Part shown: positions 39,582 through 57,186 of the stretch, piece by piece | Numbering within the stretch: position 1 is the first letter of the stretch | Layout: every line of letters starts with the position of its first letter | Source: Gammaproteobacteria bacterium | Lineage (GTDB): Bacteria; Pseudomonadota; Gammaproteobacteria; Steroidobacterales; Foliamicaceae | Direction: 5' to 3' | Assembly: GCA_011523505.1 (NCBI GenBank) | Contig: WTGP01000034.1 | Span: 124,001 to 188,000, forward strand | Length of the DNA: 64,000 bases | Made by a program: the position numbers and the translations under genes | Notes under the pieces: model-generated | Database searches by the model: none | What the model saw: only the letters and a program-made list of their open reading frames with translations | What the model was told of the DNA's origin: nothing

Positions 39582-40694
39582 ATGAATCCCGTATTCGTAA
39601 CCGGCGCGGCCGGACACGTGGGCGCCAATCTTGTGCGCCGCCTGCTCGCCGACGGCGTCCGCATCCGGGTGCTGCTGAGGCACGAGGACAACAACGAGGG
39701 CCTGGAAGGCCTCGATATTGAACGCGCTTACGGCGATATCCGGGACCTGAACGCCACCCGGCAAGCGATCGAGGGTTGCGCGGGCGTCTATCACGTCGCC
39801 GCGAAAGTCTCCACCATTGACGGCACTCGCGCGCACCGCCGCGAGGTGTACGAGTGCAACGTGCTGGGCACCCGCAACGTGCTGCAGGCGGCGCGGGAGA
39901 CGGAAGCCGGGCGGGTGGTGGTGACGGGCTCGTTCAGCGCGGTTGGCTACGATCTCGACGATCCGTCGGCTCCTAGCGACGAGACCATGCAGTTCTACCC
40001 CATGGAGCGCACGATGCCGTACGAGCGCAGCAAGATGCTCGTCGAGCACGAGTGCTGGCGCGCGGCGGCGGCGGGGCAGGACGTCATCGTCGCGACCTGC
40101 TGCGCGGTCGTGGGGGGTGCGGACTTTTTCCCGTCACGCCTGGGGCGGACCCTTTGCGACTACACCGACGGCAAGCTCCATGCCTTCGTGGATGGCGGGT
40201 TCGAGTTCGTGGCGGCGCGCGATATCGTCGAAGGGCACCTGCTGTGCATGCGCAATGGACGCCTGGGCGAGAAGTACATCTTCAGCAGCGAGTACAAGAC
40301 CATCTCCGACATGCTCGATCTCTACGAAGAGGTTACGGGCATTCCGCGGCCGAGCCGGCGGATTCCGGCCAATCTCATGTATGTGTTTTCTGAGGCGGCG
40401 AGCTTCTACCTGAGCCGCGTTCACCCCGACTTTCCGCAGCGTTTCACGCCCGGCGCCATCCGCCTGCTGAAAAAGCGTCGTCATGCCAACCTCGACAAGG
40501 CCAAAAGCGAGCTCGGATACCGGCCGACGAGCATCCGCGACGCCGTGCATGAGGCGTACGCGTTTCACTATCACGAGCGCAAGGCGATCACCAATCCGCA
40601 GGCGAAACGCCCGCGCTCGAACGGCGCGGCCTATGAGGAAAATGCCGCGCCGAACCGGATTACGCAGGTTACCGCCGATGGAGGCGCGTCGTGA
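39582..40694 (+). CDS. sdmB: 3-beta-HSD-like NAD(P)-dependent reductase, SdmB-type sterol C-4 demethylation partner
   Basis: This 370-residue extended SDR is of the 3-beta-hydroxysteroid dehydrogenase/epimerase kind. It has FVTGAAGHVGANLVRRLL at the start, YHVAAKVS, a catalytic Tyr-Lys in PYERSKMLVE (about residue 147), and FVAARDIVEGHLLCM near residue 215. In Methylococcus, SdmB with the Rieske enzyme SdmA removes a C-4 methyl of sterols, and eukaryotic NSDHL/ERG26 does the C3-oxidising decarboxylation step. The next gene is a Rieske oxygenase overlapping by GTGA and the operon holds CYP51 and an oxidosqualene cyclase, so this role is well supported by context. The exact step (decarboxylation or 3-keto reduction) is inference. 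Confidence 0.82.
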   Translation: MNPVFVTGAAGHVGANLVRRLLADGVRIRVLLRHEDNNEGLEGLDIERAYGDIRDLNATRQAIEGCAGVYHVAAKVSTIDGTRAHRREVYECNVLGTRNVLQAARETEAGRVVVTGSFSAVGYDLDDPSAPSDETMQFYPMERTMPYERSKMLVEHECWRAAAAGQDVIVATCCAVVGGADFFPSRLGRTLCDYTDGKLHAFVDGGFEFVAARDIVEGHLLCMRNGRLGEKYIFSSEYKTISDMLDLYEEVTGIPRPSRRIPANLMYVFSEAASFYLSRVHPDFPQRFTPGAIRLLKKRRHANLDKAKSELGYRPTSIRDAVHEAYAFHYHERKAITNPQAKRPRSNGAAYEENAAPNRITQVTADGGAS

Positions 40695-41821
40695 ACACGG
40701 CGCCGGCCGGACCGCCCGGCTTCGACGAAGCCGTCAACCTGCGCCAGAAGGTGCGCGCCGCGGGCATGGATCCGGACTACTGGTATGCGGTCGAGGAAGT
40801 GCGAAATATCAAGCCGGGAAGCGTGGTCGAGGTAGTTTTCTGGAAGCGTTCGATTGCGCTGTTCCGGTCCGAGGACGGTTCGTTTCACGCCATGGACAAC
40901 CGCTGCGCCCATCGCCAGCTCAAGCTGTCGCTGGGCCAGGTGGAAGGCTGCCGGCTGGTGTGCGCCTACCACGGCTGGAAATACGACCCGGACGGACGGC
41001 TTGCCGAGACCGCGCACGAGATGCTTGGGGGAAGCATGCCGAATGTCGCGCTCAGGACCTATCCGGTAAAGGTCCGCTACGGCCTGATCTGGCTGTTCCC
41101 AGGGAACCCGGAACGGGCTCAATCGCGCCGGATTCCCGATATTCCCGAGCTGGAGGGCAAGGGCCGCTGGGCCTGCGTGCCGCTGAGTTTCACCTGGTCG
41201 GCGCACCACTCGATGGTGATCGACAACGTCAGCGATTTCACTCACGCCTGGCTGCACCGCCGTTACCGCCCGTTCGACGGCGCCGTGCTCACGCGCTGCG
41301 AGACGGTTGGCGACGACGTGCACGTGGCCTACGACACGAGCGTCGGACGCGGGCGCTTTTCCGGAATGTTCGTCGATCGCGAGCGGGTCGATACCAATTC
41401 CATGAAGCTCTGCTATCAGTATCCGTACCAGTGGTCGAACACCGACGAGGCGATAAAGCACTGGTGTTTCGTGCTGCCCGTGGACGAGCGCACGACCCGG
41501 GCCTTCTTCCTGTTCTACTTCAAGTCCCTGAAGGTTCCGTTGCTGCCGATACGCTTCCCCCGGCTTGCGATGACCACGGTATTGAAGATATCCAACCGTG
41601 TGCTCATCGGGCCGCTGCTCTCCCAGGACGGGTTTGCGCTCGAAGCCGAGCAGGAGGGTTACGAGCGGCACTTCAACGCCCGACCTCTCGAATTCAACCC
41701 GGCGGTACGGGCTTTTCAGAACGTGACGGTGCGCAAGTGGCAGGAGTACCTGGCCAGGGAGAACGGAGCGGCGATGCCCGCGCCCGGGTTGACGACCGCG
41801 GACGGCGGCGCCGATGCCTGA
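40691..41821 (+). CDS. sdmA: Rieske oxygenase, SdmA-type sterol C-4 demethylase
   Basis: This 376-residue Rieske non-heme iron oxygenase starts at GTG 40691, overlapping the previous stop. The [2Fe-2S] ligands are CAHRQLKLSLGQ and CAYHGWKY (about residues 75-100). The mononuclear iron site has Asp and two His in NVSDFTHAWLHRRY (about residue 180). The C-terminal region has hydrophobic segments (FYFKSLKVPLLPIRFP) that might touch the membrane. In Methylococcus, SdmA oxidises the sterol C-4 methyl group in place of eukaryotic ERG25. The sterol operon context makes that role likely, though the family alone would not show it. Confidence 0.83.
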   Translation: MNTAPAGPPGFDEAVNLRQKVRAAGMDPDYWYAVEEVRNIKPGSVVEVVFWKRSIALFRSEDGSFHAMDNRCAHRQLKLSLGQVEGCRLVCAYHGWKYDPDGRLAETAHEMLGGSMPNVALRTYPVKVRYGLIWLFPGNPERAQSRRIPDIPELEGKGRWACVPLSFTWSAHHSMVIDNVSDFTHAWLHRRYRPFDGAVLTRCETVGDDVHVAYDTSVGRGRFSGMFVDRERVDTNSMKLCYQYPYQWSNTDEAIKHWCFVLPVDERTTRAFFLFYFKSLKVPLLPIRFPRLAMTTVLKISNRVLIGPLLSQDGFALEAEQEGYERHFNARPLEFNPAVRAFQNVTVRKWQEYLARENGAAMPAPGLTTADGGADA

Positions 41822-42911
41822 GTTGCCGGCGCCGGTGTTAGCGCTTTCGGGCGCGCTGCTGTTCCAGGCGGCGGTAATGATCGCCGTCTTTATCGGCGCA
41901 CTGTTTCTGGGATCGATACTCGTGCCGGGTCGCCGGATCAGGGGGCCGGATCTCGGCGGCAAGTCGATCACCTACAAGATCAACGGGCTGGCGCTTTTGC
42001 TGCTCACCGTGCTTGCGGCAGGCATCGCCCAGGTTTCCGGCGCGTTCTCACTGTCGATGCTGTATACGCACTTTTTCGCGCTCTTCGTGGCGGCGAACGT
42101 GTTCGCGTTTGCGTTTTCCGGCTGGCTTTATTGGCGAAGCGCGCGGAAGCCTGCCGAATCGCCGGGGTTCTGGCGGGCCTACTTCTTCGGTGCGGAACTC
42201 AATCCCGCCCTGCTCGGGGTGGACCTCAAGATGTTCAGCTACCGCCCGTCGCTCATCGGGCTGGCGCTGTTCAACACCTCGTTCGCCGTCGTTCAATACG
42301 AAACCTACGGCTACCTGACCCTGGCTATGGCCCTCTACCTGGTCCTGACATGGGTCTATGTGCTGAACTACTTCCAGTTCGAAAGGGGCATGGTCCACAC
42401 CTGGGACATCATCAGCGAGCGCTTCGGATGGATGCTGGTGTGGGGCGACTACGTGTTTGTGCCCTTCTTCTACTGCATCGTCGGCTGGTGGCTGGTCGAT
42501 GCCTCGGGTCCGCCGCTGAGCCCCGTCGCCGCTGCCGGCATCGTGCTGCTGTACGCCTTCGGCTTCTGGATATTCCGGGGCGCCAACGCGCAGAAGCACC
42601 GATTCAAGCGCGATCCGTCCACGACGATCTGGGGCCGGCCCGCCGAGTCCCTCGACGGGCGGCTGCTCGTGTCCGGGTTCTGGGGCATCGGGCGGCACCT
42701 CAACTACAGCGGCGAGATCTGCATCTACCTCGCGTTTGCGCTCACCACCGGATTTGCATCCTGGGCGCCGTTCCTGTTGCCGACCTGGCTTACCGGGCTG
42801 CTGTGGCATCGCTCGCGCCGCGACGAGCGGCGCTGCCGCGCCAAGTACGGCGAATTGTGGGGGCGCTACAAGGAGCGCGTGCCGTATTCGATGGTCCCGT
42901 TCGTGTATTGA
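41814..42911 (+). CDS. Delta-14 sterol reductase (ERG24/ERG4 family)
   Basis: This 365-residue polytopic membrane protein belongs to the ERG4/ERG24 sterol reductase family. About nine hydrophobic segments run through the chain. The family's C-terminal NADPH/sterol motif is present as LLVSGFWGIGRHLNYSGEI (about residues 283-301), with the final RRDERRCRAKYGELWGRYKERVPY typical of the family (about residues 330-355). It reduces the C14=C15 bond left by CYP51. It overlaps the Rieske gene by 8 bases and is followed 10 bases later by CYP51, a sensible order of chemistry. A C-24(28) or delta-7 specificity cannot be excluded by eye. Confidence 0.88.
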   Translation: MPELPAPVLALSGALLFQAAVMIAVFIGALFLGSILVPGRRIRGPDLGGKSITYKINGLALLLLTVLAAGIAQVSGAFSLSMLYTHFFALFVAANVFAFAFSGWLYWRSARKPAESPGFWRAYFFGAELNPALLGVDLKMFSYRPSLIGLALFNTSFAVVQYETYGYLTLAMALYLVLTWVYVLNYFQFERGMVHTWDIISERFGWMLVWGDYVFVPFFYCIVGWWLVDASGPPLSPVAAAGIVLLYAFGFWIFRGANAQKHRFKRDPSTTIWGRPAESLDGRLLVSGFWGIGRHLNYSGEICIYLAFALTTGFASWAPFLLPTWLTGLLWHRSRRDERRCRAKYGELWGRYKERVPYSMVPFVY

Positions 42912-42921
42912 GGGAATAAAG

Positions 42922-44331
42922 GTGGCGAACCATACCGATAGCGCAGCCACCCTGCGTTCGGCGCGGCCCGCGGCGCCGCCGGGCAAGCCGATTCCGGAAA
43001 TCTCGGGCGGCTGGCCGCTGCTGGGGCATCTGCCGGAGTTCCAGAGGAATCCGGTGGCGATGCTCGATCGCTGTAGGCGCGAGCATGGCGAACTGGTCCG
43101 TTTCCGGCTGGGGACGCGCGAATTCGTGCTGTTTACCGGACCGGAAGCCCACGACTGCTACTTCCGGGCGCCCGAGGACCAGCTTGACGCCCGTGCCGTG
43201 TACCAGTTCACGGTGCCCATCTTCGGGCGCGGCGTGGCCTACGACGTGGCTCCCGAGATCATGGCGGAGCAGTTGGGGTTCCTGTATCCGGCGCTGCGCG
43301 ACGCTCCGATGCGCAGGTACGCCGAAATCATGTACGACGAAGCCGGTCGGTTTGCCGACGCGCTCGGAGAGGCAGGCGTGCTCGACCTGCCGGCGGCGAT
43401 GAACCGACTTACCGTGAACATCGCCAGCCGCTGCCTGCTGGGTCAGGAGGTACGGGATCAGGTGGATTCGGGATTCGCACAGGCGTACCACGACCTCGAG
43501 GAGGGCATAAACCTGATCGGCTTCTTCCTGCCCAGGCTACCGATCCCGGCGCATCGGCGTCGTGACCGCGCGCGCCGCAGGATAGCCGGAATTCTTGTCC
43601 GAATCATGGAGGGCCGGCGGGGCTCGGGCGCCGCGCCGGAGGATTTCATGCAGGCGCTGATGCAGGCCCGCTACAGGGACGGCCGGACCCTGAGCGACGA
43701 CGAGGTGACCGGGATACTGCTGACGGTACTGTTCGCCGGCCAGCACACCAGCGCGGTGCTCGCAAGCTGGATGGGCCTTGAGATGTTCCGCGATCCCGCC
43801 TGCGTGGCGCGGATTCGCGCCGAGATGCGCGAGATTTACGGTGAGACGGGGGCCATGAGCCTCGCCGGCCTCAAGCGCCAGACGGCGCTGGAATGGACGG
43901 TGCGCGAGTGTGAGCGGCTGCATCCGCCGCTGATACTGCTCATTCGCAAGGTGCTGAAACCGCTTCAATATGCGGGGTACACCGTGCCTGCCGGGGCCCT
44001 GGCCGTCGTCTCTCCGGCGGTTTCCCACCGTTTGCCGGGCCTGTTCGCCGATCCTCAGCGGTTCGATCCCGAACGGTTCGCTCCGCCGCGCAGCGAGAAC
44101 AAGCAGCACCTCTATACGCTGATCGGTTTCGGCGGAGGCAAGCACCGGTGCATGGGGGAAAAATTCGCCATGCTGCAACTGAAGGCGATCTGGACGGTGC
44201 TGCTGGACCGCTTCGATTTTGATCCCGTTGCGGATTTTCCCGCGCCGAATTACGGCAGCTGGGTGACGGGCCCCATGGTGCCGTGCCGGGTCCGCTACCG
44301 TCGCCGCGCGCAAGCGAGCGTATTCAGTTGA
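42922..44331 (+). CDS. cyp51: Cytochrome P450, sterol 14-alpha-demethylase (CYP51)
   Basis: This 469-residue P450 has no N-terminal membrane anchor, as in other bacterial CYP51. The I-helix reads LFAGQHTSAVLAS, the CYP51 version of the oxygen-activation motif. The B-C region AVYQFTVPIFGRGVAYDVAP resembles CYP51 substrate recognition site 1. The ExxR is in VRECERLHPP and the heme-binding loop is FGGGKHRCMGE (about residues 404-414). GTG at 42922 with AGGGA is the start; the ORF frame extends upstream antonymously through the reductase gene. It removes the 14-alpha-methyl of lanosterol-type sterols in three oxidations. The TGA overlaps the next TTG start. Confidence 0.93.
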   Translation: MANHTDSAATLRSARPAAPPGKPIPEISGGWPLLGHLPEFQRNPVAMLDRCRREHGELVRFRLGTREFVLFTGPEAHDCYFRAPEDQLDARAVYQFTVPIFGRGVAYDVAPEIMAEQLGFLYPALRDAPMRRYAEIMYDEAGRFADALGEAGVLDLPAAMNRLTVNIASRCLLGQEVRDQVDSGFAQAYHDLEEGINLIGFFLPRLPIPAHRRRDRARRRIAGILVRIMEGRRGSGAAPEDFMQALMQARYRDGRTLSDDEVTGILLTVLFAGQHTSAVLASWMGLEMFRDPACVARIRAEMREIYGETGAMSLAGLKRQTALEWTVRECERLHPPLILLIRKVLKPLQYAGYTVPAGALAVVSPAVSHRLPGLFADPQRFDPERFAPPRSENKQHLYTLIGFGGGKHRCMGEKFAMLQLKAIWTVLLDRFDFDPVADFPAPNYGSWVTGPMVPCRVRYRRRAQASVFS

Positions 44332-47300
44332 GCGCCTGTCCGCGTTACGACGTAATCATCGTTGGTGCGGGGCCTGTAGGCAGCTATTGCGCCCTGGCCC
44401 ACGCGCGCAGGGGCGCGCGCGTGGCCTTGCTCGAGGCGAACCCCAGGGCGGCCACGCGGCTGGCCGGCGAGTGGCTGCACCCGCTGGCCGTGCGCATGTT
44501 GCGCGATGCCGGCATCCGCCTCGATCCGCCGCTGCGCAGCACCGAGGGTCAGGGCTTCGTCGTATTTCCCGAGGACGGCTCGGAACCGATCGTGCTCCCG
44601 TACCCCGGCGGGGCGCTGGGGATAGCCTGCGACCATGAGATTCTCGTGGCGCGTCTTCATGAAGCCGTCCGCAAGGAGCCGGGCATCGACTTTCTTGTCA
44701 ATGCGCGGGTGCGGCAGGTCGAAGACGACGGCGTGGTCTTCACCCGCGGCGGCTCCACCGAATGCCTCGCCGCCGACAGGATTGTCGGCGCCGACGGCCG
44801 GTCATCCGCCGTGCGGCGGTCCCTGGGGCTGCCGATGCGCCGCAAGGCCTGCTCGCGGATGGTGGGCGTGACCCTTGAAGGCGTGAGTCTGGAGCCGGCC
44901 GGCTACGGCAACGTGATACTCGGCGGCCCGGGTCCGATTCTCGGATATCCGCTGGGCGAGCATTGCGCCAGGATCGTCGTCGACGTGCCGCTTGAGCAGT
45001 GGACCTCGCGCGACAGGACCGGCCTGCTGGCCGAGTCCTACGCCAGTGTCCTGCCGGAAGCGTTGAGGCCCGCGTTTCTCTCGGCGCTGAGGTCGGGAAA
45101 ATTCCACGCGGCGGCCAATGAACTCAGGCCGCGCATCTCCTACGGCACGTCGAGGCGGGTGCTGATCGGCGATGCGGCGGGTCATTACCATCCGATGACG
45201 GCGGTGGGCATGACGCTCGGTTTCGGCGATGCGGCCGCGCTGGCGGAAGGCGGGAGCTTCAAGAAATTCGCCGCCGGACGCTTCAAGGCCACCCGCGCCC
45301 CGGAACTGCTCGCCCTGGGGCTCTATGAGGCCTTTGCCGATCACCGCCTCGAATCGGTCGCGCTGCGGAACGCGATCTACCGCAACTGGCGGGCGCACGC
45401 GCTGGTCCGCAACCGGACCATGCGGCTGCTCGCCTGCGAAGAAACATCGATGACCCAACTTGTGCTGGCAACGCTCGCGATGGTGATCCGGGCCGTTGCG
45501 GGGGTGATCCCTTCATCATTCGAAAAGCTGGCCTGGCGGCGGGCGCGCGACATCGTTTTTCCGCTCGTTGCGCGTCTCCGCTGGTTCATGCGTGGCATCA
45601 GCAAGCTCAAGGGAGTAATTAACAGAGGCGGCGGTCAGGACCGGCAGGCCCGCAGGGCGTTGTCGCGCGCGCTTCTCGCTTCCATGTCCCCGGACAACGG
45701 CGGAGCCGGCGCCGCGCAGACGGGCGAATCCGCTTCGCCCGACGCGGAGCCCGCATTGCGCCGGGCCGCGGGGCGCCTGCTGGACCTTCAGGGCGAGGAC
45801 GGCGCCTGGGAAGGCGAGATGGTCTGGTGCCCCATGCTCACGGCGCAATACGTGCTGCTGCAACACGTTCTCGGCGAGTCGATCGATTCCGGCCGGAGAC
45901 GGCGCATCCTGCGCTCGTTCGAACGCACCCGCCTGGCGGACGGCGCGTGGGGATTGCACGAGCACTCGCCGCCCCACCTGTTCGTGACCGTTCTGGTTTA
46001 TGTCGCGTCGCGACTACTCGGCGTGGAGCCTGACGACCCGCTTGTCGCGCCGGCCCGCCGTTTCCTCGCCGAAGAGGACGTGCTCGAGGTCCCGAGCTGG
46101 GGGAAATTCTGGCTGGCGCTGCTCAATCTGTACGACTGGCGCGGGGTGAATGCCGTTCTCCCGGAATTGTGGACGCTGCCGCGCGGGTTGCCCTTGCATC
46201 CCTCGAACTGGTACTGCCACACGCGGCTCATCTACATGGCGATGGCGTCCATCTACGCGCAACGGTTCCAGGCGCCGGTCACGCCCGTGATCGAAGCCCT
46301 GCGGGAGGAGCTGTTCGGAGACGGGTTTGCCCGCCTCGATTTTTCTTCCGCCCGCAACCGCCTGCGCGATGCCGACCTGTTTGCCCACCCGAGCGTCTGG
46401 CTGCGCGCCGGATACGCGCTGGCGCGCCTGTGTGACCGCTTCCACAGCAAGCGCCTGCGCCGGCGCTGCCTGGAGAAGCTGGTCCGGCAGATCCAATGGG
46501 AGTTGCGGACCACGAGTCACAGCAGCATCTCGCCGGTCAGCGGTTTTCTGAACATTCTGGCTTTGTGGCTGCACGATCGGGACGATGCCGACTGCCGTGC
46601 CGCGCTCGACCAGCTCGACGGCTGGTTCTGGGAGGACGAGGAGCGTGGCGCGCGGGTCACCGGAGCGAGAAGCAGCACCTGGGACACGGCCTTTTCCGTG
46701 CAGGCGCTGGTGGCCGCGCCCGGGTCCGGGGAAATTTCGGACGCCGTCCGCAAGGGCGCCGGCTTCCTGCGCGCACAACAGATCCGCACCAGCTTCGACG
46801 GGTTTCGCGAGGCCTTTCGCGCCGACCCGAAGGGAGGCTGGTGTTTTCCCGGCGGCTGGCATGGCTGGCCGGTCAGCGACTGCACAGCCGAAGCCGTGCT
46901 CGGGATTCTCGCCGCGGGAGGTGAAGACGCGGACGAGGCGGCACTGGGCGAGGCGGTCCGGTTCATGTTGCGGAGCCAGAACCGCGACGGCGGCTTCGGC
47001 AGCTACGAAACGCGGCGCTCGCGGATCGGTCTCGAGTGGCTGAACCCCGCCGAGATGTTCGGCGAATCGATGACCGAGAATTCCTATGTCGAGTGCACGG
47101 CGTCCTGCCTGGAGGCGCTGGCCGCCTGCGGGCGCCGGTTTCCGCAATTCCCGGACCCGCGGGCGGCCCGGGCCATTTCCAGGGGCGCCGCCTGGCTGCG
47201 CAAGACCCAGGGACGCGATGGCTCCTGGCGCGGCGTGTGGGGCGTTCAGTTCATCTACGGGACCTTCTTCGGCATCAGAGGGCTGGTGGCCGCCAGGGCA

Positions 47301-47732
47301 GGACCCGGCGATCCGGCGCTGCGTCTGGCCTGCCGCTGGCTGCTCGACCGGCAGCGCGATGACGGCGGATGGGGCGAACACCACAGCGGCTGCCTGACGG
47401 GCCGCTACGTCCCGCATGAGGAAAGCCAGGTCATCCAGACCGCCTGGGCCCTGCTCGCGCTGCTGGAGGCGGAGGAGTCCAACTGGACCGCCATTGCGCG
47501 CGGCGCGCGGTTCCTGCTCGACGCCCAGGTAGCGGACGGCGGCTGGCCGAAACAGGACATGGCCGGCGTCTTCTTCCGCACTGCGCTGCTGGACTACGTC
47601 CTGTACCGGCAGTATTTCCCGCTGCGCGCGCTCGGCCTCTACGAGCAACGCCGCCGGAAGCGGCTCGAACTGACTGCCGCTTCGAAGGAGAAGGAGCCGG
47701 ACGCGGTCCGGATCAGGCCGCGAGCCGCTTGA
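44328..47732 (+). CDS. sqmO-osc: Squalene monooxygenase - oxidosqualene cyclase fusion protein
   Basis: One open frame encodes 1134 residues holding two successive sterol enzymes. Residues 1-430 are an FAD monooxygenase: VIIVGAGPVGSYCA (10-22), GADGRSS (154-160) and LIGDAAGHYHPMTAVGMT (279-296), with a hydrophobic C-terminal stretch (376-420), as in squalene epoxidase. Residues 430-475 are an Ala/Gly/Ser linker. Residues 476-1134 are a triterpene cyclase with QW-type repeats (QNRDGGFGSYE, QGRDGSWRG, RQRDDGGWGE, QVADGGW), LEWLNPAEMFGESMTENSYVECT-type OSC core (903-923), and VSDCTAE with catalytic Asp851. The latter is diagnostic of oxidosqualene cyclases, not squalene-hopene cyclases (DxDD). 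Start is TTG 44328 overlapping the CYP51 stop. Both other frames carry TAA at 45616-45622 near the junction, so an indel error should be ruled out. Confidence 0.9.
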   Translation: MSACPRYDVIIVGAGPVGSYCALAHARRGARVALLEANPRAATRLAGEWLHPLAVRMLRDAGIRLDPPLRSTEGQGFVVFPEDGSEPIVLPYPGGALGIACDHEILVARLHEAVRKEPGIDFLVNARVRQVEDDGVVFTRGGSTECLAADRIVGADGRSSAVRRSLGLPMRRKACSRMVGVTLEGVSLEPAGYGNVILGGPGPILGYPLGEHCARIVVDVPLEQWTSRDRTGLLAESYASVLPEALRPAFLSALRSGKFHAAANELRPRISYGTSRRVLIGDAAGHYHPMTAVGMTLGFGDAAALAEGGSFKKFAAGRFKATRAPELLALGLYEAFADHRLESVALRNAIYRNWRAHALVRNRTMRLLACEETSMTQLVLATLAMVIRAVAGVIPSSFEKLAWRRARDIVFPLVARLRWFMRGISKLKGVINRGGGQDRQARRALSRALLASMSPDNGGAGAAQTGESASPDAEPALRRAAGRLLDLQGEDGAWEGEMVWCPMLTAQYVLLQHVLGESIDSGRRRRILRSFERTRLADGAWGLHEHSPPHLFVTVLVYVASRLLGVEPDDPLVAPARRFLAEEDVLEVPSWGKFWLALLNLYDWRGVNAVLPELWTLPRGLPLHPSNWYCHTRLIYMAMASIYAQRFQAPVTPVIEALREELFGDGFARLDFSSARNRLRDADLFAHPSVWLRAGYALARLCDRFHSKRLRRRCLEKLVRQIQWELRTTSHSSISPVSGFLNILALWLHDRDDADCRAALDQLDGWFWEDEERGARVTGARSSTWDTAFSVQALVAAPGSGEISDAVRKGAGFLRAQQIRTSFDGFREAFRADPKGGWCFPGGWHGWPVSDCTAEAVLGILAAGGEDADEAALGEAVRFMLRSQNRDGGFGSYETRRSRIGLEWLNPAEMFGESMTENSYVECTASCLEALAACGRRFPQFPDPRAARAISRGAAWLRKTQGRDGSWRGVWGVQFIYGTFFGIRGLVAARAGPGDPALRLACRWLLDRQRDDGGWGEHHSGCLTGRYVPHEESQVIQTAWALLALLEAEESNWTAIARGARFLLDAQVADGGWPKQDMAGVFFRTALLDYVLYRQYFPLRALGLYEQRRRKRLELTAASKEKEPDAVRIRPRAA

Positions 47733-47734
47733 CG

Positions 47735-48754
47735 TCAGTCTCCCCGGGGCAGGGGTTTGCGGGCCAGGAAGTAGAACATCGGCGTAAAGATCCCGGTCCG
47801 GCCGCCTTCTACGAGTGTATCCGCCCCCCAGTTCAGGAACGTGCTGACCTCCCGCGCGCCTTGCGGAGCGAGCCGCAACGGCTCCGCAACCCGCAGGATC
47901 AGATTGGTCAGGACGCGCCCCAACGGCGTGCGCGGGATGCTCGCAAGGCTGAAGTCCCGGCCCTGAAGGGCCCGGTACCAAGGCGTTTCCGGATCCGATT
48001 CGCCGGCGAGGTCGAGGGATTCGATCAGCTCGAATCCGGCCGCGCGCACGGCTTCGCAAACTTCTGTCGTGCCGGCGATATCCGGTAGCGCCGATCCGGT
48101 CATGATTCCTTCCTTGATTTGCCGGTGTTCCGCGTTCGAAGGATCGAATGCGTCGGTGAGACACCATTCGTAGCACGCGAAACCGGCCCCGGGACGTAAA
48201 ACACGGAAGATCTCGGCGTACGCGGCGGTCTTGTCCGGCGCGTGGGGCATCGCTTCGATGCTGATGGCGCCATCGTAGTGGTCGTCGCTCCGGGGAATCT
48301 GCATGTAGTCGCTTTTTATGAAACGGCACAGCGCCTCGACGTCACGTGTGTGCACTTTCGCGCGCTCGATCTGGTAGGCGTTGTTGTTGATGCCGACAAA
48401 GCTAGCGCCGCAATGGCGGGCCAGGTTGCCCATGGGGCCGCCCACGCCGCATCCCACGTCGAGAACCTGCATTCCCGGCTTCAGGGAGAGCTTGTCGGCC
48501 AGGAAATGCTGGTGCCGGATCTGCGACGCCTTGAAACTCTCGCTCCGCCGGCGGGGGGCGAAGTGGAAGCTCTTGCCCCAACCCCACTCGTAGAAATCGG
48601 TCACGAGGTCGTAGTACTGGTTGACGAGCTGCCGGTAGCGCTCCTTCTTGCGCTCGACGCCGGCATCGTGAAGCCCGACGTAGTCATCGACCACCGACTT
48701 CACTTCCTCCTGGGTCAGATTCCCAAGAGAACGTTTGGTCACTTTCGCATCCAC
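47735..48754 (-). CDS. smt: Sterol C-24 methyltransferase (SMT/ERG6 type)
   Basis: This SAM-dependent methyltransferase has 339 residues. The sterol-binding region FYEWGWGKSFHFAP (54-67) is the signature of ERG6/SMT enzymes, followed by the SAM motif VLDVGCGVGGPMGNLA (97-112), ISIEAMPHAPDK and a C-terminal SMT domain. It methylates the sterol side chain at C-24. The long upstream frame is antisense to the next gene and rejected; GTG at 48754 with GGAGG 7 bases before it is the start (GTG at 48742 is also in frame). It ends 2 bases from the convergent cyclase gene. SMTs are common in eukaryotes and rare in bacteria. Confidence 0.92.
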   Translation of the reverse strand: MDAKVTKRSLGNLTQEEVKSVVDDYVGLHDAGVERKKERYRQLVNQYYDLVTDFYEWGWGKSFHFAPRRRSESFKASQIRHQHFLADKLSLKPGMQVLDVGCGVGGPMGNLARHCGASFVGINNNAYQIERAKVHTRDVEALCRFIKSDYMQIPRSDDHYDGAISIEAMPHAPDKTAAYAEIFRVLRPGAGFACYEWCLTDAFDPSNAEHRQIKEGIMTGSALPDIAGTTEVCEAVRAAGFELIESLDLAGESDPETPWYRALQGRDFSLASIPRTPLGRVLTNLILRVAEPLRLAPQGAREVSTFLNWGADTLVEGGRTGIFTPMFYFLARKPLPRGD

Positions 48755-48877
48755 CCCCGCGCCTCCGGATATGCCGGCAGGAATCCGGCCGGATTGTAGC
48801 CCGTCTGCCCTCGATCCATCGAATCGCGGCGCGATAGAATGCGCCCGCCGCCACAGTGGATAGTGTGAGGGGGGCAC

Positions 48878-49612
48878 ATGTCCGAAAGCCGCGCCAGCCT
48901 GCCGCCATCCGAACAGGGCCAGGACAGCAAGGGCCTGACGGCGCCCGTGGCCTTGCTCGTGGCGCTGAAAATCGCCGCCGGCACGCTTCTCGGCATCCTG
49001 GTGCGCCTGCGCACCCACGGGGAACTGAATTTCCTTCATTCCCTGTTCTGCCTGTTCTTTTCGGTCAATCTCCTGATCTGCTACTGGGAAATCTGCCTGT
49101 TCTTCCTTCGTGACAGGATCGGGGCGCGCGCCGGGTACTGGCGCGAAATGCAGCGCAGGACGGGACGCCCGCCCGCCCACGGTTTCTTCGCCACGAGGAT
49201 CAGGCTTACACAGGTCCTGTCGCCGGCGGTCTGGGCCGACGCCTGGGCGGCCTACTGCTATTACGACGACTCGTATGCCGACCGCCGCACCTTCGGCTTC
49301 AACGTGGACATCGCCAACGGTTTCGTGACGCCCGTTCCGACACTGGTCCTCTATGCCGCATTCACGGTCGGCTACCCGTCCGCCCTGGTGGCCGGGGTCA
49401 TCGGGCTGGCGCTTTCCTGGCAATGGGTTTACATGACCTCGACTTACCTGGTCAGCTTTTTCGTGGCGAGACGGCACACCCTGGTGAGCCGGCGCGACAT
49501 GTATATCTACATCGTGGCGATCAATTCCTTCTGGATCCTGTGCGCGCTGCTGGGCGTATATGTTTCCATTGCCCTCATCGCCAACGGCGACTACCGCGTG
49601 CTGGGTTTGTAA
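48878..49612 (+). CDS. Unidentified polytopic membrane protein next to the sterol genes
   Basis: This 244-residue protein has about five hydrophobic segments (near residues 24-42, 50-75, 125-145, 150-180 and 205-240). I do not recognise the family. By eye, WAAYCYYDDSYADRRTFGFNVD and INSFWILCALLGV recall the WKEY-DSRY and N-x-x-W blocks of EXPERA/emopamil-binding sterol isomerases, and the topology is similar. The His and Glu of the human isomerase are not apparent, so this is only a lead. GAGGGGGG precedes the ATG. It is divergent from the sterol methyltransferase over 123 bases, so a shared promoter region and a sterol-related role (isomerase, desaturase partner or transporter) are possible. 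Confidence 0.6.
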   Translation: MSESRASLPPSEQGQDSKGLTAPVALLVALKIAAGTLLGILVRLRTHGELNFLHSLFCLFFSVNLLICYWEICLFFLRDRIGARAGYWREMQRRTGRPPAHGFFATRIRLTQVLSPAVWADAWAAYCYYDDSYADRRTFGFNVDIANGFVTPVPTLVLYAAFTVGYPSALVAGVIGLALSWQWVYMTSTYLVSFFVARRHTLVSRRDMYIYIVAINSFWILCALLGVYVSIALIANGDYRVLGL

Positions 49613-53685: not shown

Positions 53686-54516
53686 CTACACGCCGTAGAA
53701 GCGGGCGGCGGTGGCGCCCAGCACAAGGGCTTGATCTGCTTCGTCCAGACTGTTCAGGAAGCGGTCGGCGATCGCGTGCCAGCCGGGGTAGGTGCCGGCC
53801 AGCAGGAGTACCGGCCAGTCGCTGCCCCACATGAGGCGCTCCGGCCCGAAGGTGGCGAGCAGGTGCTCCATGTAGGGGAGCAGGTCGTCGTAGCCCTGGT
53901 CCGGGCTCGCCTCGGTCAACAGGCCGGACAGCTTGCAATACGCGCCGGTGCGCTCGGCCAGTTCGGACATGCGGTCCGCCCACGGCTGCCACAGGCCCTC
54001 GGTAATGACCGGCTTGGCGCCATGGTCGATCACGGTCTTGAGGTCCGGATGGCGCTGCAGGAACTCGAGCAGATAGGGCAGGTGCTGGGGGCGGACGAGC
54101 GCGTCGAAGCACAGGCCGGCGTCGATCACGGCTTCGGTCGCCGCCGCCAGCCCCGGGCGCGTGATCCACGCTTCGTCCTCGATGTTGTGGATCATCGGCC
54201 GGATGCCGACCAGCTTAGGGTGTTGCGCGAGGTCGCCAAGCACCGTCGCAGCATCGGCGCTTTCCATGTCGATCCAGCCCACCACGCCGGCCACCAGGTC
54301 GGTCTGGCCGGCCAGTTCCAGCATGAAGCGCGTTTCCGCGACGGTCGGCGCGGCCTGGACCAGGATGGTCCTGTCGACGCCCGCTTCCAGCAACAGCGGG
54401 GCGAGGTCGTCGGGCCCGAAATCACGGTACAGCGGCTCGAGCGCCGGCGTCAGCCAGCCGTAGTCGTTGCGCTCGACCTTCCAGAAGTGCTGGTGGGCGT
54501 CGATTCGAGGCGGCAT
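53686..54516 (-). CDS. Amidohydrolase 2 family lactonase, L-fuconolactonase-like
   Basis: This 276-residue metal-dependent hydrolase is of the amidohydrolase 2 family. IDAHQHFWKVER at the start carries the H-x-H motif, VIDHGAKP (about residue 170) holds a further His, and MWGSDWPV (about residue 225) the conserved Asp. Members hydrolyse sugar lactones such as L-fucono- or L-rhamnono-lactone to the acid. This is the step missing between the aldo/keto reductase at 34140 and the fuconate dehydratase at 35183, so it may complete that pathway although 18 kb away. Its ATG overlaps the Rieske gene stop as TAATG. Confidence 0.86.
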   Translation of the reverse strand: MPPRIDAHQHFWKVERNDYGWLTPALEPLYRDFGPDDLAPLLLEAGVDRTILVQAAPTVAETRFMLELAGQTDLVAGVVGWIDMESADAATVLGDLAQHPKLVGIRPMIHNIEDEAWITRPGLAAATEAVIDAGLCFDALVRPQHLPYLLEFLQRHPDLKTVIDHGAKPVITEGLWQPWADRMSELAERTGAYCKLSGLLTEASPDQGYDDLLPYMEHLLATFGPERLMWGSDWPVLLLAGTYPGWHAIADRFLNSLDEADQALVLGATAARFYGV

Positions 54517-55646
54517 TAGCGTGGAAAAGTCGTCGGCACCACCGGGTGGACCCAGTTCTTCGGGTCTTTCCGGCGGGCGGGCGAGGGGATGGAGTAGTGC
54601 CGGAAGCGCCCTTCGTCCTGCAACCTGTCGAAATCGATTTCCCAGCCCTGTTTCACTTTCTCGATCAGCACCTTGCGGAACGCTGTCTCCATCTGGTCGG
54701 CCTCCACCAGGAGCTGGTGCGCCATGGATCGCGGCACGAACTTCGGCTCGACCGTGGCGACCACGTCAAGATCTTCCTTGTAGGCCCGCCGTATGCCCTC
54801 GCGGCGCGCCTCGTCGTGCTCTTCCTCCAACAGGTAATTGCGGGCCTGGTGCGCGAAAACCCGCGTGTTGTAGGGATCGACGGGCGTGCGGGCGGAAACG
54901 GTCACCTGCCTGATATTGCCTTCCCTTGTGATGTCGATGCGGTGGGATATGCCCGCCAGGTAGGAATCGGTCGAGGCCGTGGTCTTGCCCCTCTTCTCGG
55001 AAACGAGTTTGGCGATATCGGCGCTGATCTGGCTGCGCTTGGGCGGCACGCGCTGGCGGGTGGCGTTGTGTCCCATGAACGCATTGGGGACCAGCGGAAC
55101 GATTTGCACTTCGGGCGCGCTGCGCCGGCCGAAACTGGCATGCACGAACGCGGGATGCGCGCTGTCCAGCGAGTTCTCGTGGCCGCGGGCCCAGTTCACG
55201 TCCGCGTCGAATTCCATCGACACCACGCGCCAGTTTTCCTTGTCGTGGTATTCAGGGAACTCGGTGGCCGGAATCCTGGGGCGTTCGTCCTCCTCCAGGT
55301 CGCCCAGGAACACCCATACCCAGTCAAAGTGCTCTTCGACGGGATACGAGTCCACCCGCGCGCGCTTCGGAATCTTCGCGTCCTTTCCCAGCGCCGGGAT
55401 CTCCACGCACCGGCCCTGCGGATTGAACTTCCAGCCGTGGTAGCCGCAACCGATGCAGCCGGCGCCGTCCAGCTCGCCCCGGCCGATCGAACCGCCGCGA
55501 TGGCAGCAGGTGTTGGCCAGGCAAACCGCCTCGCCTTCGGGAGTGCGGTACAGGACGAAGTTCTGGCCTAACATACGCACGATCAGGGGCTTCTCCCGGT
55601 TCACCTGTTGACTCTTGGCAGCCACATACCAGTTGTTTATCAACAT
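54516..55646 (-). CDS. Rieske [2Fe-2S] oxygenase (aromatic ring/demethylase type)
   Basis: This 376-residue Rieske oxygenase alpha subunit begins MLINNWYVAAKSQQVNREKP at ATG 55646. The cluster ligands are in ANTCCHRGGSIGRG and CIGCGYHGWKFN (about residues 45-75). The mononuclear iron site has GHENSLDSAHPAFVHASF (about residues 155-172). A longer upstream frame is antisense to the HpaB gene. Relatives include vanillate O-demethylase and phthalate-type oxygenases; it needs a separate reductase, which is not adjacent. It is unlike the SdmA-type protein at 40691 and not obviously sterol-related. Confidence 0.89.
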   Translation of the reverse strand: MLINNWYVAAKSQQVNREKPLIVRMLGQNFVLYRTPEGEAVCLANTCCHRGGSIGRGELDGAGCIGCGYHGWKFNPQGRCVEIPALGKDAKIPKRARVDSYPVEEHFDWVWVFLGDLEEDERPRIPATEFPEYHDKENWRVVSMEFDADVNWARGHENSLDSAHPAFVHASFGRRSAPEVQIVPLVPNAFMGHNATRQRVPPKRSQISADIAKLVSEKRGKTTASTDSYLAGISHRIDITREGNIRQVTVSARTPVDPYNTRVFAHQARNYLLEEEHDEARREGIRRAYKEDLDVVATVEPKFVPRSMAHQLLVEADQMETAFRKVLIEKVKQGWEIDFDRLQDEGRFRHYSIPSPARRKDPKNWVHPVVPTTFPR

Positions 55647-55716
55647 GCTCGTTTCCCAGTCCGACGGCCGCGGGCGTGCGCGCGCCTCATTGTACTTTCG
55701 CCCCTGAACGGTAAAT

Positions 55717-57186
55717 ATGCTGCGCACCGGAAGTGAGTTTCTGGCAGGCCTGAGAGATGGCCGGCGGGTGTATATCGGGGGCCGGAGGGTGGAGGACGTT
55801 ACCGTCCATCCCGCTTTCAGGGGCGCCGCGGGCACTCTTGCAAGACTGTTCGACTACAAGCAGGACCCCGCAAACGCCGATGTCATGTCGTTTGAGGAAA
55901 ACGGCGAACGCTTCGCCAGCTACTACCTGAAGCCTCGGTCGAGAGACGACCTCAGGCGGCGATCGGCGGCGCACTATGCCATCGCCGATCAGACATACGG
56001 CCTCCTCGGCCGAAGTCCCGATCATGTGTCCAGTTTCGTGACCGGCCTTGCCATGAACCCGGAAATACTGGACCGCGACGGCGATGCCTTTGCCGGCAAC
56101 ATATCCGCCTACTACGACCACCTGCGCAAGGGCGACCTCTACGCCACCTATGCGGTGCACCCGGCTCCCCAATCGAAGAACGAAGCGTTGTTCGGCGACA
56201 CCGGGGGCCATCAGGCCGTCCTTCAGGTCGTGGATGAAGATCGGCAGGGAGTCACGCTGAACGGGATGAAGATGCTTGCGACGGCGGGAATCTTCTGCGA
56301 CGAGGTCTGGATAGGGAACCTCACGCCCATCTCGGACGACCGCGGCAAGGAGGCGATTACCTGTGCCGTTCCGATGAACGCCTCGGGGCTCACCCTGTGG
56401 GCGCGCAAGCCCATGGAGCCGTATGCCGTCAGCGAGAGCGACAATCCGCTTGCATCGCGATTCGACGAGAGCGATGTAATGCTGATCTTCGACAACGTGC
56501 AGGTGCCGTGGGAAAGGGTCTTCGTCCATGACCGCGCGGCGCTGTCCCGCGAAATCTATATCGAGACCGCCTCGCACACGCTGGGCAATCACCAGTCCAA
56601 CGTGCGCTTTCACGCCAAACTGCGGTTTATCGCCGGCATCATCCACAAGATCGCCCGGTCCGCGGGCGTGGACGGAATCCCCGTGGTGGCCGAGAAACTG
56701 GGGCGGCTGGCCTCGTGGGAGGCCGCTCTGGGCGGGATGATTCAGGGCCAGATACTGGACTGCGAGGATCTCGGCAACGGCTTCCTGAACTTCAATCGGC
56801 GCTACATGTACGCCGCCCTGAACTGGTGCCAGGAGCATTATCCCGAGATCGTCGCCATGATGAGGGAACTTTCGGGCGGGGGCGTTTTCCAGATGCCCGC
56901 GGATTTTTCCGTTCTCGACAACCCGGAAACGCGCGACATTTTCAACGACTACTGGACTACCCCGGCGGAATCCGCGGTCGATCGCGTGAAGCTCTACAGG
57001 CTCGCCTGGGACATGTACGGCAGCGAATTCGGCGCCCGGCAGCAGCAGTATGAGAATTTTTTCGCCGGCCCGTCGTTCATCGTCCGCAATCACAGCTTCC
57101 GGGAAGCGCCCTGGAGTTCCTTCGACGGGATGGTGGAGCGATTGCTGGGCGCCGGTTCCGCGCCGGACCGATCGCGGGAGGACTGA
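55717..57186 (+). CDS. 4-hydroxyphenylacetate 3-monooxygenase (HpaB)-family flavin-dependent hydroxylase
   Basis: This 489-residue protein has the HpaB/4-hydroxybutyryl-CoA dehydratase fold (acyl-CoA dehydrogenase-like). MLRTGSEFLAGLRDGRRVYIGG at the start, HYAIADQTYGLLGRSPDHV (about residue 90), the flavin-contacting ATAGIFCDEVWIGN (about residue 188), and LNFNRRYMYAALNW are typical. Such enzymes hydroxylate phenols ortho to the OH using FADH2 from a partner reductase (HpaC), which is not seen here. It is divergent from the Rieske gene and 7 bases upstream of the racemase-like gene. Confidence 0.88.
   Translation: MLRTGSEFLAGLRDGRRVYIGGRRVEDVTVHPAFRGAAGTLARLFDYKQDPANADVMSFEENGERFASYYLKPRSRDDLRRRSAAHYAIADQTYGLLGRSPDHVSSFVTGLAMNPEILDRDGDAFAGNISAYYDHLRKGDLYATYAVHPAPQSKNEALFGDTGGHQAVLQVVDEDRQGVTLNGMKMLATAGIFCDEVWIGNLTPISDDRGKEAITCAVPMNASGLTLWARKPMEPYAVSESDNPLASRFDESDVMLIFDNVQVPWERVFVHDRAALSREIYIETASHTLGNHQSNVRFHAKLRFIAGIIHKIARSAGVDGIPVVAEKLGRLASWEAALGGMIQGQILDCEDLGNGFLNFNRRYMYAALNWCQEHYPEIVAMMRELSGGGVFQMPADFSVLDNPETRDIFNDYWTTPAESAVDRVKLYRLAWDMYGSEFGARQQQYENFFAGPSFIVRNHSFREAPWSSFDGMVERLLGAGSAPDRSRED

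Follow-up and report, generated by a model that had tools for sequence, protein, structure and literature searches.

A predicted one-chain squalene monooxygenase and oxidosqualene cyclase in a bacterial sterol gene cluster

Described fusions and the cluster in the window

Squalene epoxidation and cyclisation form the entry to sterol synthesis, and a natural one-chain form of both enzymes permits a direct test of what is gained by joining them. In Methylococcus the same two enzyme families are encoded by two genes, MCA2872 being named SE (PMC4919349) and MCA2873 OSC (PMC10070321) in the accessible text of these papers. A one-chain epoxidase/cyclase is nevertheless not new in kind, as it is already in print for a sponge-symbiont bacterium. 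According to the part of PMC7074536 available to us, MsbE belongs to the msb cluster of a gamma-proteobacterial symbiont of Melophlus sarasinorum, for which a role in sarasinoside synthesis was proposed. Like the protein described here it carries an N-terminal squalene epoxidase and a C-terminal cyclase on one chain, with a valine at the lanosterol position that was the ground for naming it a lanosterol cyclase (PMC7074536). 'Fused SMO/OSC homologs' are also mentioned in the methods of Brown et al. 2023 (PMC10070321), and fusions of this kind had thus been described, although the original prediction knew of none. In the accessible text of that study fused homologues likewise occur among bacterial OSCs, and metagenomic clusters contain sdmA, sdmB and methyltransferases; unlike in the present work, however, the part preceding the cyclase was trimmed off and goes undiscussed, and it was the methyltransferases that were tested, not the fusion (PMC10070321). 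A third likeness is the Ircinia 'cluster of steroid genes' TM7SF2/ERG24-CYP51-LSS/ERG7, reported from 115 of 537 sponge MAGs in ten phyla, whose three-gene core equals ours and whose mean length of 5,910 bp compares with 5,919 bp for 41814-47732; its third gene is labelled lanosterol synthase, and the word 'fusion' is absent from the main text as accessible (PMC9531527). No description of a fused enzyme was found in the accessible parts of PMC4919349, PMC13277303, PMC10152446 and PMC12008989, and the open-licence literature, as far as it was covered, yielded no laboratory test of one. What is new here are the unfused relatives that locate the join, a probable second fusion event, and a breadth of 75 full-length fusions spread over nine phylum labels.

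The window, the whole stretch of 64,000 nucleotides that was analysed, contains a cluster at 39582-48760 (Table 1). Our comparison with MsbE (MT026193.1) was made through its published description, in which the msb neighbours are of the same kinds, an oxidoreductase, a Rieske protein, a sterol reductase, a C30-demethylase and a sterol methyltransferase, and in which msbA and msbB overlap, as do the first two cluster genes in the window at 40691-40694 (PMC7074536). Note that the SdmA and SdmB models stay under their cut-offs, and these gene names therefore denote likeness. The P450 gene is likely the C-14 demethylase, as judged from its place in the cluster. The order ERG24-P450-fusion recurs in 54 of the 66 related loci whose upstream flank measures 3.2 kb or more, and SdmA is found together with SdmB in 50 of the 60 having 7 kb upstream. 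Of the 72 loci with 2 kb downstream, 26 have a methyltransferase gene close behind the fusion and on the other strand; in 11/80 it is on the same strand instead. The presence of a C-24 methyltransferase-like gene bears on whether sponge bacteria make side-chain alkylated sterols, the question posed in PMC10070321; fossils of such sterols are taken as animal markers.

Two further genes were observed near the cluster. The forward-strand frame 48878-49612 encodes 244 amino acids with several hydrophobic stretches and has no match in Pfam, NCBIfam or PDB; in 24 of 80 loci a relative is encoded close to the fusion, and the frame is perhaps an unrecognised sterol-cluster gene. About 6 kb past the cluster, 54516-55835 on the reverse strand encodes a second Rieske oxygenase, which matches KshA_C (3-ketosteroid 9-alpha-hydroxylase type) weakly.

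Table 1. Features of the cluster and of the fused gene (coordinates in the window)
Feature	Position	Strand	Basis
SdmB-like / HpnA-like oxidoreductase gene	39582..40694	+	NCBIfam SdmB 296.9 bits, below cut-off 600
SdmA-like Rieske oxygenase gene	40691..41821	+	NCBIfam SdmA 403.5 bits, below cut-off 600
ERG4/ERG24-family sterol reductase gene	41814..42911	+	Pfam PF01222 246.8 bits
Cytochrome P450 gene, C-14 demethylase likely from cluster position	42925..44331	+	Pfam p450 208.3 bits
Fused squalene monooxygenase - oxidosqualene cyclase gene	44328..47732	+	1,134 aa, TTG start
TTGA, fusion start overlapping P450 stop	44328..44331	+	Sequence; 4-base overlap of such kind in 56/61 related loci
Monooxygenase (FAD) domain, residues 1-365	44328..45422	+	Pfam FAD_binding_3 7-306, SE 153-306; human squalene monooxygenase match 8-302
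GAGPVG dinucleotide-binding motif	44364..44381	+	Sequence
FAD-domain motif GDAAGHYHPMTAVGMT	45168..45215	+	Sequence; D282, H288, P289 invariant 64/64
Hydrophobic stretch, residues 375-397, predicted membrane contact	45450..45518	+	Kyte-Doolittle peak 2.0; also in unfused monooxygenase tails
Join, about residues 456-472	45693..45743	+	Comparison with unfused pairs
Oxidosqualene cyclase domain, about residues 475-1107	45750..47648	+	Pfam, NCBIfam, human lanosterol synthase match
VSDCTAE motif with V849 and catalytic D851	46872..46892	+	Sequence, residue alignment
Sterol C-24 methyltransferase-like gene, start not fixed	47735..48760	-	Pfam Sterol_MT_C 76.8 bits

Domains, catalytic residues and predicted product

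The fused gene is a single open frame of 1,134 codons if read from the TTG at 44328, and a GTG further upstream, at 44283, would extend the product to 1,149 amino acids. Among 64 aligned fused proteins the majority consensus opens with MS, as the window protein does, and the 4-base overlap with the P450 gene recurs in most of the 61 related loci where such a gene is adjacent. This recurrence suggests that the start at 44328 is likely right and that translation of the fusion is likely coupled to that of the P450 gene. The original prediction of one protein with an FAD monooxygenase half and a cyclase half was borne out by the frame, by Pfam and by the matches to the human enzymes, and the motifs on which it drew, GAGPVG, GADG, GDAAGHYHPMTAVGMT and VSDCTAE, are all found in the sequence. 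The Squalene epoxidase (SE) domain exceeds its cut-off of 20.1 bits with a score of 72.8, and the first half matches human squalene monooxygenase with an E value of 1.3e-24. The C and N domains of the cyclase score 191 and 186.8 bits and span residues 478-1106, and human lanosterol synthase aligns with this second half at an E value of 3.7e-136. TIGR01787 (squalene/oxidosqualene cyclase) yields 498.6 bits, above its cut-off of 322.7. The NCBIfam model TIGR03463, matched over positions 3-633 of its 634, has a cut-off of 851 bits, which the cyclase half misses with a score of 747.3; this shortfall speaks against a strict assignment to the model.

With the positions of human lanosterol synthase (LSS) that we take to form the catalytic aspartate with two cysteine partners, the His/Tyr pair and the aromatic pocket as a guide, the residue set of an oxidosqualene cyclase is present. 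Counterparts of H232, W387, V453, D455, C456, Y503, C533, W581 and F696 occur in all 64 aligned fused proteins and that of F444 in 63. The position of Y98 is occupied by methionine in 61 of them, the window protein included, and by valine in three; unfused bacterial relatives have the same states there. In the FAD domain D156, G157, D282, H288 and P289 are invariant (64/64). The positions of Q168 and Y195 of human squalene monooxygenase (SQLE), presumably active-site residues, are His and Phe in the entire set, and likewise in almost every unfused bacterial relative inspected, so that the human residues need not be expected of bacterial members. As read from these alignments, the altered Y98, Q168 and Y195 positions weaken the product prediction.

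We interpret the gene as an in-frame squalene-monooxygenase/oxidosqualene-cyclase fusion of the MsbE type which very probably encodes a working bifunctional enzyme, likely to convert squalene via 2,3-oxidosqualene into lanosterol. The lanosterol-determining position, V849, is conserved in 64/64 fused proteins and points to lanosterol rather than cycloartenol. That the enzyme is an active epoxidase-cyclase whose main product is another cyclised triterpenol would agree with the TIGR03463 score and with the methionine in place of Y98, but it is improbable given V849, the same residue on which the MsbE lanosterol assignment was based (PMC7074536), given that an isoleucine at 453 is described as the hallmark of cycloartenol synthase in the accessible text of PMC4919349, and given the demethylase-type genes that adjoin the fusion.

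A true fusion with one half catalytically dead and acting as a scaffold might be suspected from the absence of Q168 and Y195. We consider this highly improbable, as the catalytic residues of both halves are invariant throughout the alignment and the states at Q168 and Y195 are common to the unfused bacterial relatives; moreover, the genome that carries the window has no second cyclase of the superfamily and no other strong match to the monooxygenase half. Two genes of the squalene/phytoene-synthase family are present in the same genome.

For a working bifunctional enzyme we propose a course of reaction in which the first half would epoxidise squalene using O2 and an external electron donor, while the hydrophobic stretch 375-397 that follows it would anchor the protein at the membrane; human squalene monooxygenase, whose C-terminal helices we take to hold the protein to the membrane, serves as the model for this stretch. 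The cyclase, which we likewise expect to dip into the membrane, would be kept beside the monooxygenase half by the short join, so that the epoxide may take a short path through the lipid. D851 would then protonate the epoxide and the second half would cyclise it to lanosterol, from which the remaining cluster genes would strip the C-14 and C-4 methyl groups and which they would alkylate at C-24. The existence of unfused cyclase/monooxygenase pairs with similar tails stands against a need for fusion and weighs against the channelling of the epoxide that the original prediction had suggested, and these relatives are natural controls for a test of the benefit of joining.

Position and authenticity of the join

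Protein searches with each half alone, under length limits that exclude most fusions, returned 90 cyclase-only proteins (at least 590 residues matched) and 101 monooxygenase-only proteins, some of which are fragments of fusions. They include 30 cyclase/monooxygenase pairs whose longest contigs are equally long, this equality being the sole basis of their status as neighbours; 29 were retained, and one was dropped as P0141 starts inside the monooxygenase tail. In nine pairs inspected, most monooxygenase tails have a hydrophobic and basic stretch resembling that in the window, many monooxygenases stop near a motif such as ARAFLTSMP, and most cyclases start near a PDARSALR-like stretch. At those places the window protein has ALSRALLASMSPDN and SPDAEPALRR, and the alignment of the unfused ends and starts with these two stretches places the join as given in Table 1. 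The fusion could have originated by loss of the stop codon between two neighbouring genes.

The expectation that the two enzymes would be encoded by separate, often adjacent genes found partial agreement. Adjacency is seen in one related genome (G192, locus L106), where a cyclase gene that has the same cyclase residues as the fusion is followed by a monooxygenase gene, their open frames overlapping by 16 bases. The order is the reverse of that in the fusion, and this arrangement is therefore no direct forerunner. Searches with the unfused cyclase P0145 failed to recover DNA of the unfused pairs; they matched 16/245, 1/296, 2/301 and 3/297 genomes, with G422 and G684 recurring between the first (245-genome) and the third (301-genome) search. 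Twenty of the 22 match rows lie in frames of at least 1,064 amino acids; the other two are a 762-residue frame (L120/L129) in which the beginning of the monooxygenase is missing and, at a contig end, a 598-residue frame (L143). The 762-residue frame of L120 (genome G461) retains the cyclase and the last part of the monooxygenase only, and the rest is absent from nearly 1.5 kb upstream.

By its codon structure and its recurrence the fusion is intact and genuine and no sequencing error, since both halves stand in one frame in 80 of 80 kept related loci and the codon-position bias is kept through the join. Some of these loci, such as L028 and L039, lie on contigs of about 3 Mb that are labelled chromosomes. 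Homologues do not always consist of two genes. Third-position GC is 0.80-0.90 in all twelve 300-base bins of the frame, join included. Aligned by codon with six loci from close relatives (L004, L084, L085, L086, L087 and L028), the frame shows not a single gap; L004 equals L085 in its counts and L087 equals L028, probably as they are the same genomes, which leaves about four independent comparisons. Within the join region, as elsewhere, third-position changes predominate. Per codon, this region has accumulated more first- and second-position changes than either domain, and by this measure it is less constrained than the domains.

The original prediction had cautioned that a one-base error might join two genes, pointing to a TAA in both other frames near the junction. 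The two triplets are indeed present (45616-45618 and 45620-45622), but they do not lie at the join (about 45693-45743), and the caution is countered by the gap-free codon alignments and the 80 loci; the reading as a true fusion is upheld by domains, conserved residues and relatives in one frame. A precedent for a frame shift exists in P0331, which is 98% identical to L104 over 411 residues and then enters another frame before the join, yet two genes merged through a one-base sequencing or assembly error are scarcely credible here and were ruled out as a candidate by the steady third-position GC, the codon alignments and the loci including the chromosome-named contigs.

Distribution and origin of the fusion

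Both domains on one chain are common elsewhere, among proteins as well as loci. In a protein search the best 120 of 1,704 matches all measure 1,110-1,186 amino acids, contain SE and both cyclase Pfam domains, and are 67-94% identical. Our locus counts rest on the best 80 of 194 confirmed relatives in genome contigs, which were picked by likeness to the fusion and are thus uninformative on the share of fused to unfused genes. A near-full-length fusion is present in 75 of them. Three of the others end at contig edges (L051, L071, L078), L060 has a weaker N-terminal match and L054 an in-frame TAG. According to record titles, in which nearly all entries are MAGs and single labels may be wrong, the 75 fall under nine phylum labels: Pseudomonadota (45), Actinomycetota (7), Chloroflexota (7), Nitrospirota (5), Acidobacteriota (2), Binatota (2), Gemmatimonadota (2), Rhodothermota (1) and Bacteroidota (1), with none assigned for three.

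Closer to the window, a stop-free full-length fusion was found in 9 of 58 genomes searched, namely in six of the nine of the genus, its own included, and in three of one other genus of the same order. It is absent from the three remaining genomes of the genus, G001, G002 and G008 (completeness 93, 66 and 91%). The copy in G004, of the same genus, is 65% identical to that of the window, lower than the 70-74% of the copies from the other family, and this comparison of identities fits horizontal transfer. A class sample of 369 genomes yielded six matches at an E value of 1e-70, fused in the window's own genome, G235 and G084, and unfused in G229, G192 and G304.

In FastTree trees 51 unfused cyclases and 48 unfused monooxygenases each form a clade beside the fused Dehalococcoidia, within the fused set. 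A quick IQ-TREE tree of 84 rows needs five changes, at least three of them forced by starred branches. One clade of all 48 sampled fused rows was rejected by the AU test (p 0.00061), whereas one clade of the 47 rows other than L104 was not rejected (p 0.677) and has a log-likelihood 18.4 above that of the tree from the free search; note that the groupings compared were defined once the first trees were known. As the constrained tree fits better than the free one, the trees that nest unfused within fused proteins are not trusted on origin. Fission of the fusion into the large unfused clade was dropped as unproven, with one main fusion not rejected by the AU test.

These tests make one main fusion and a second fusion event in the lineage of L104 likely, with the caveat that P0331, its near-identical relative over those 411 residues, departs from the reading frame close to the join. 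The wider proposal, that bacteria evolved such fusions on two or more occasions and that the main one spread as a travelling sterol island across at least nine phyla because a membrane-held chain channels 2,3-oxidosqualene to the cyclase, is in our view speculative and rather doubtful. As a minor observation, the TAG of L054, the same gene as L113, lies within the cyclase half, and the fusion is otherwise open.
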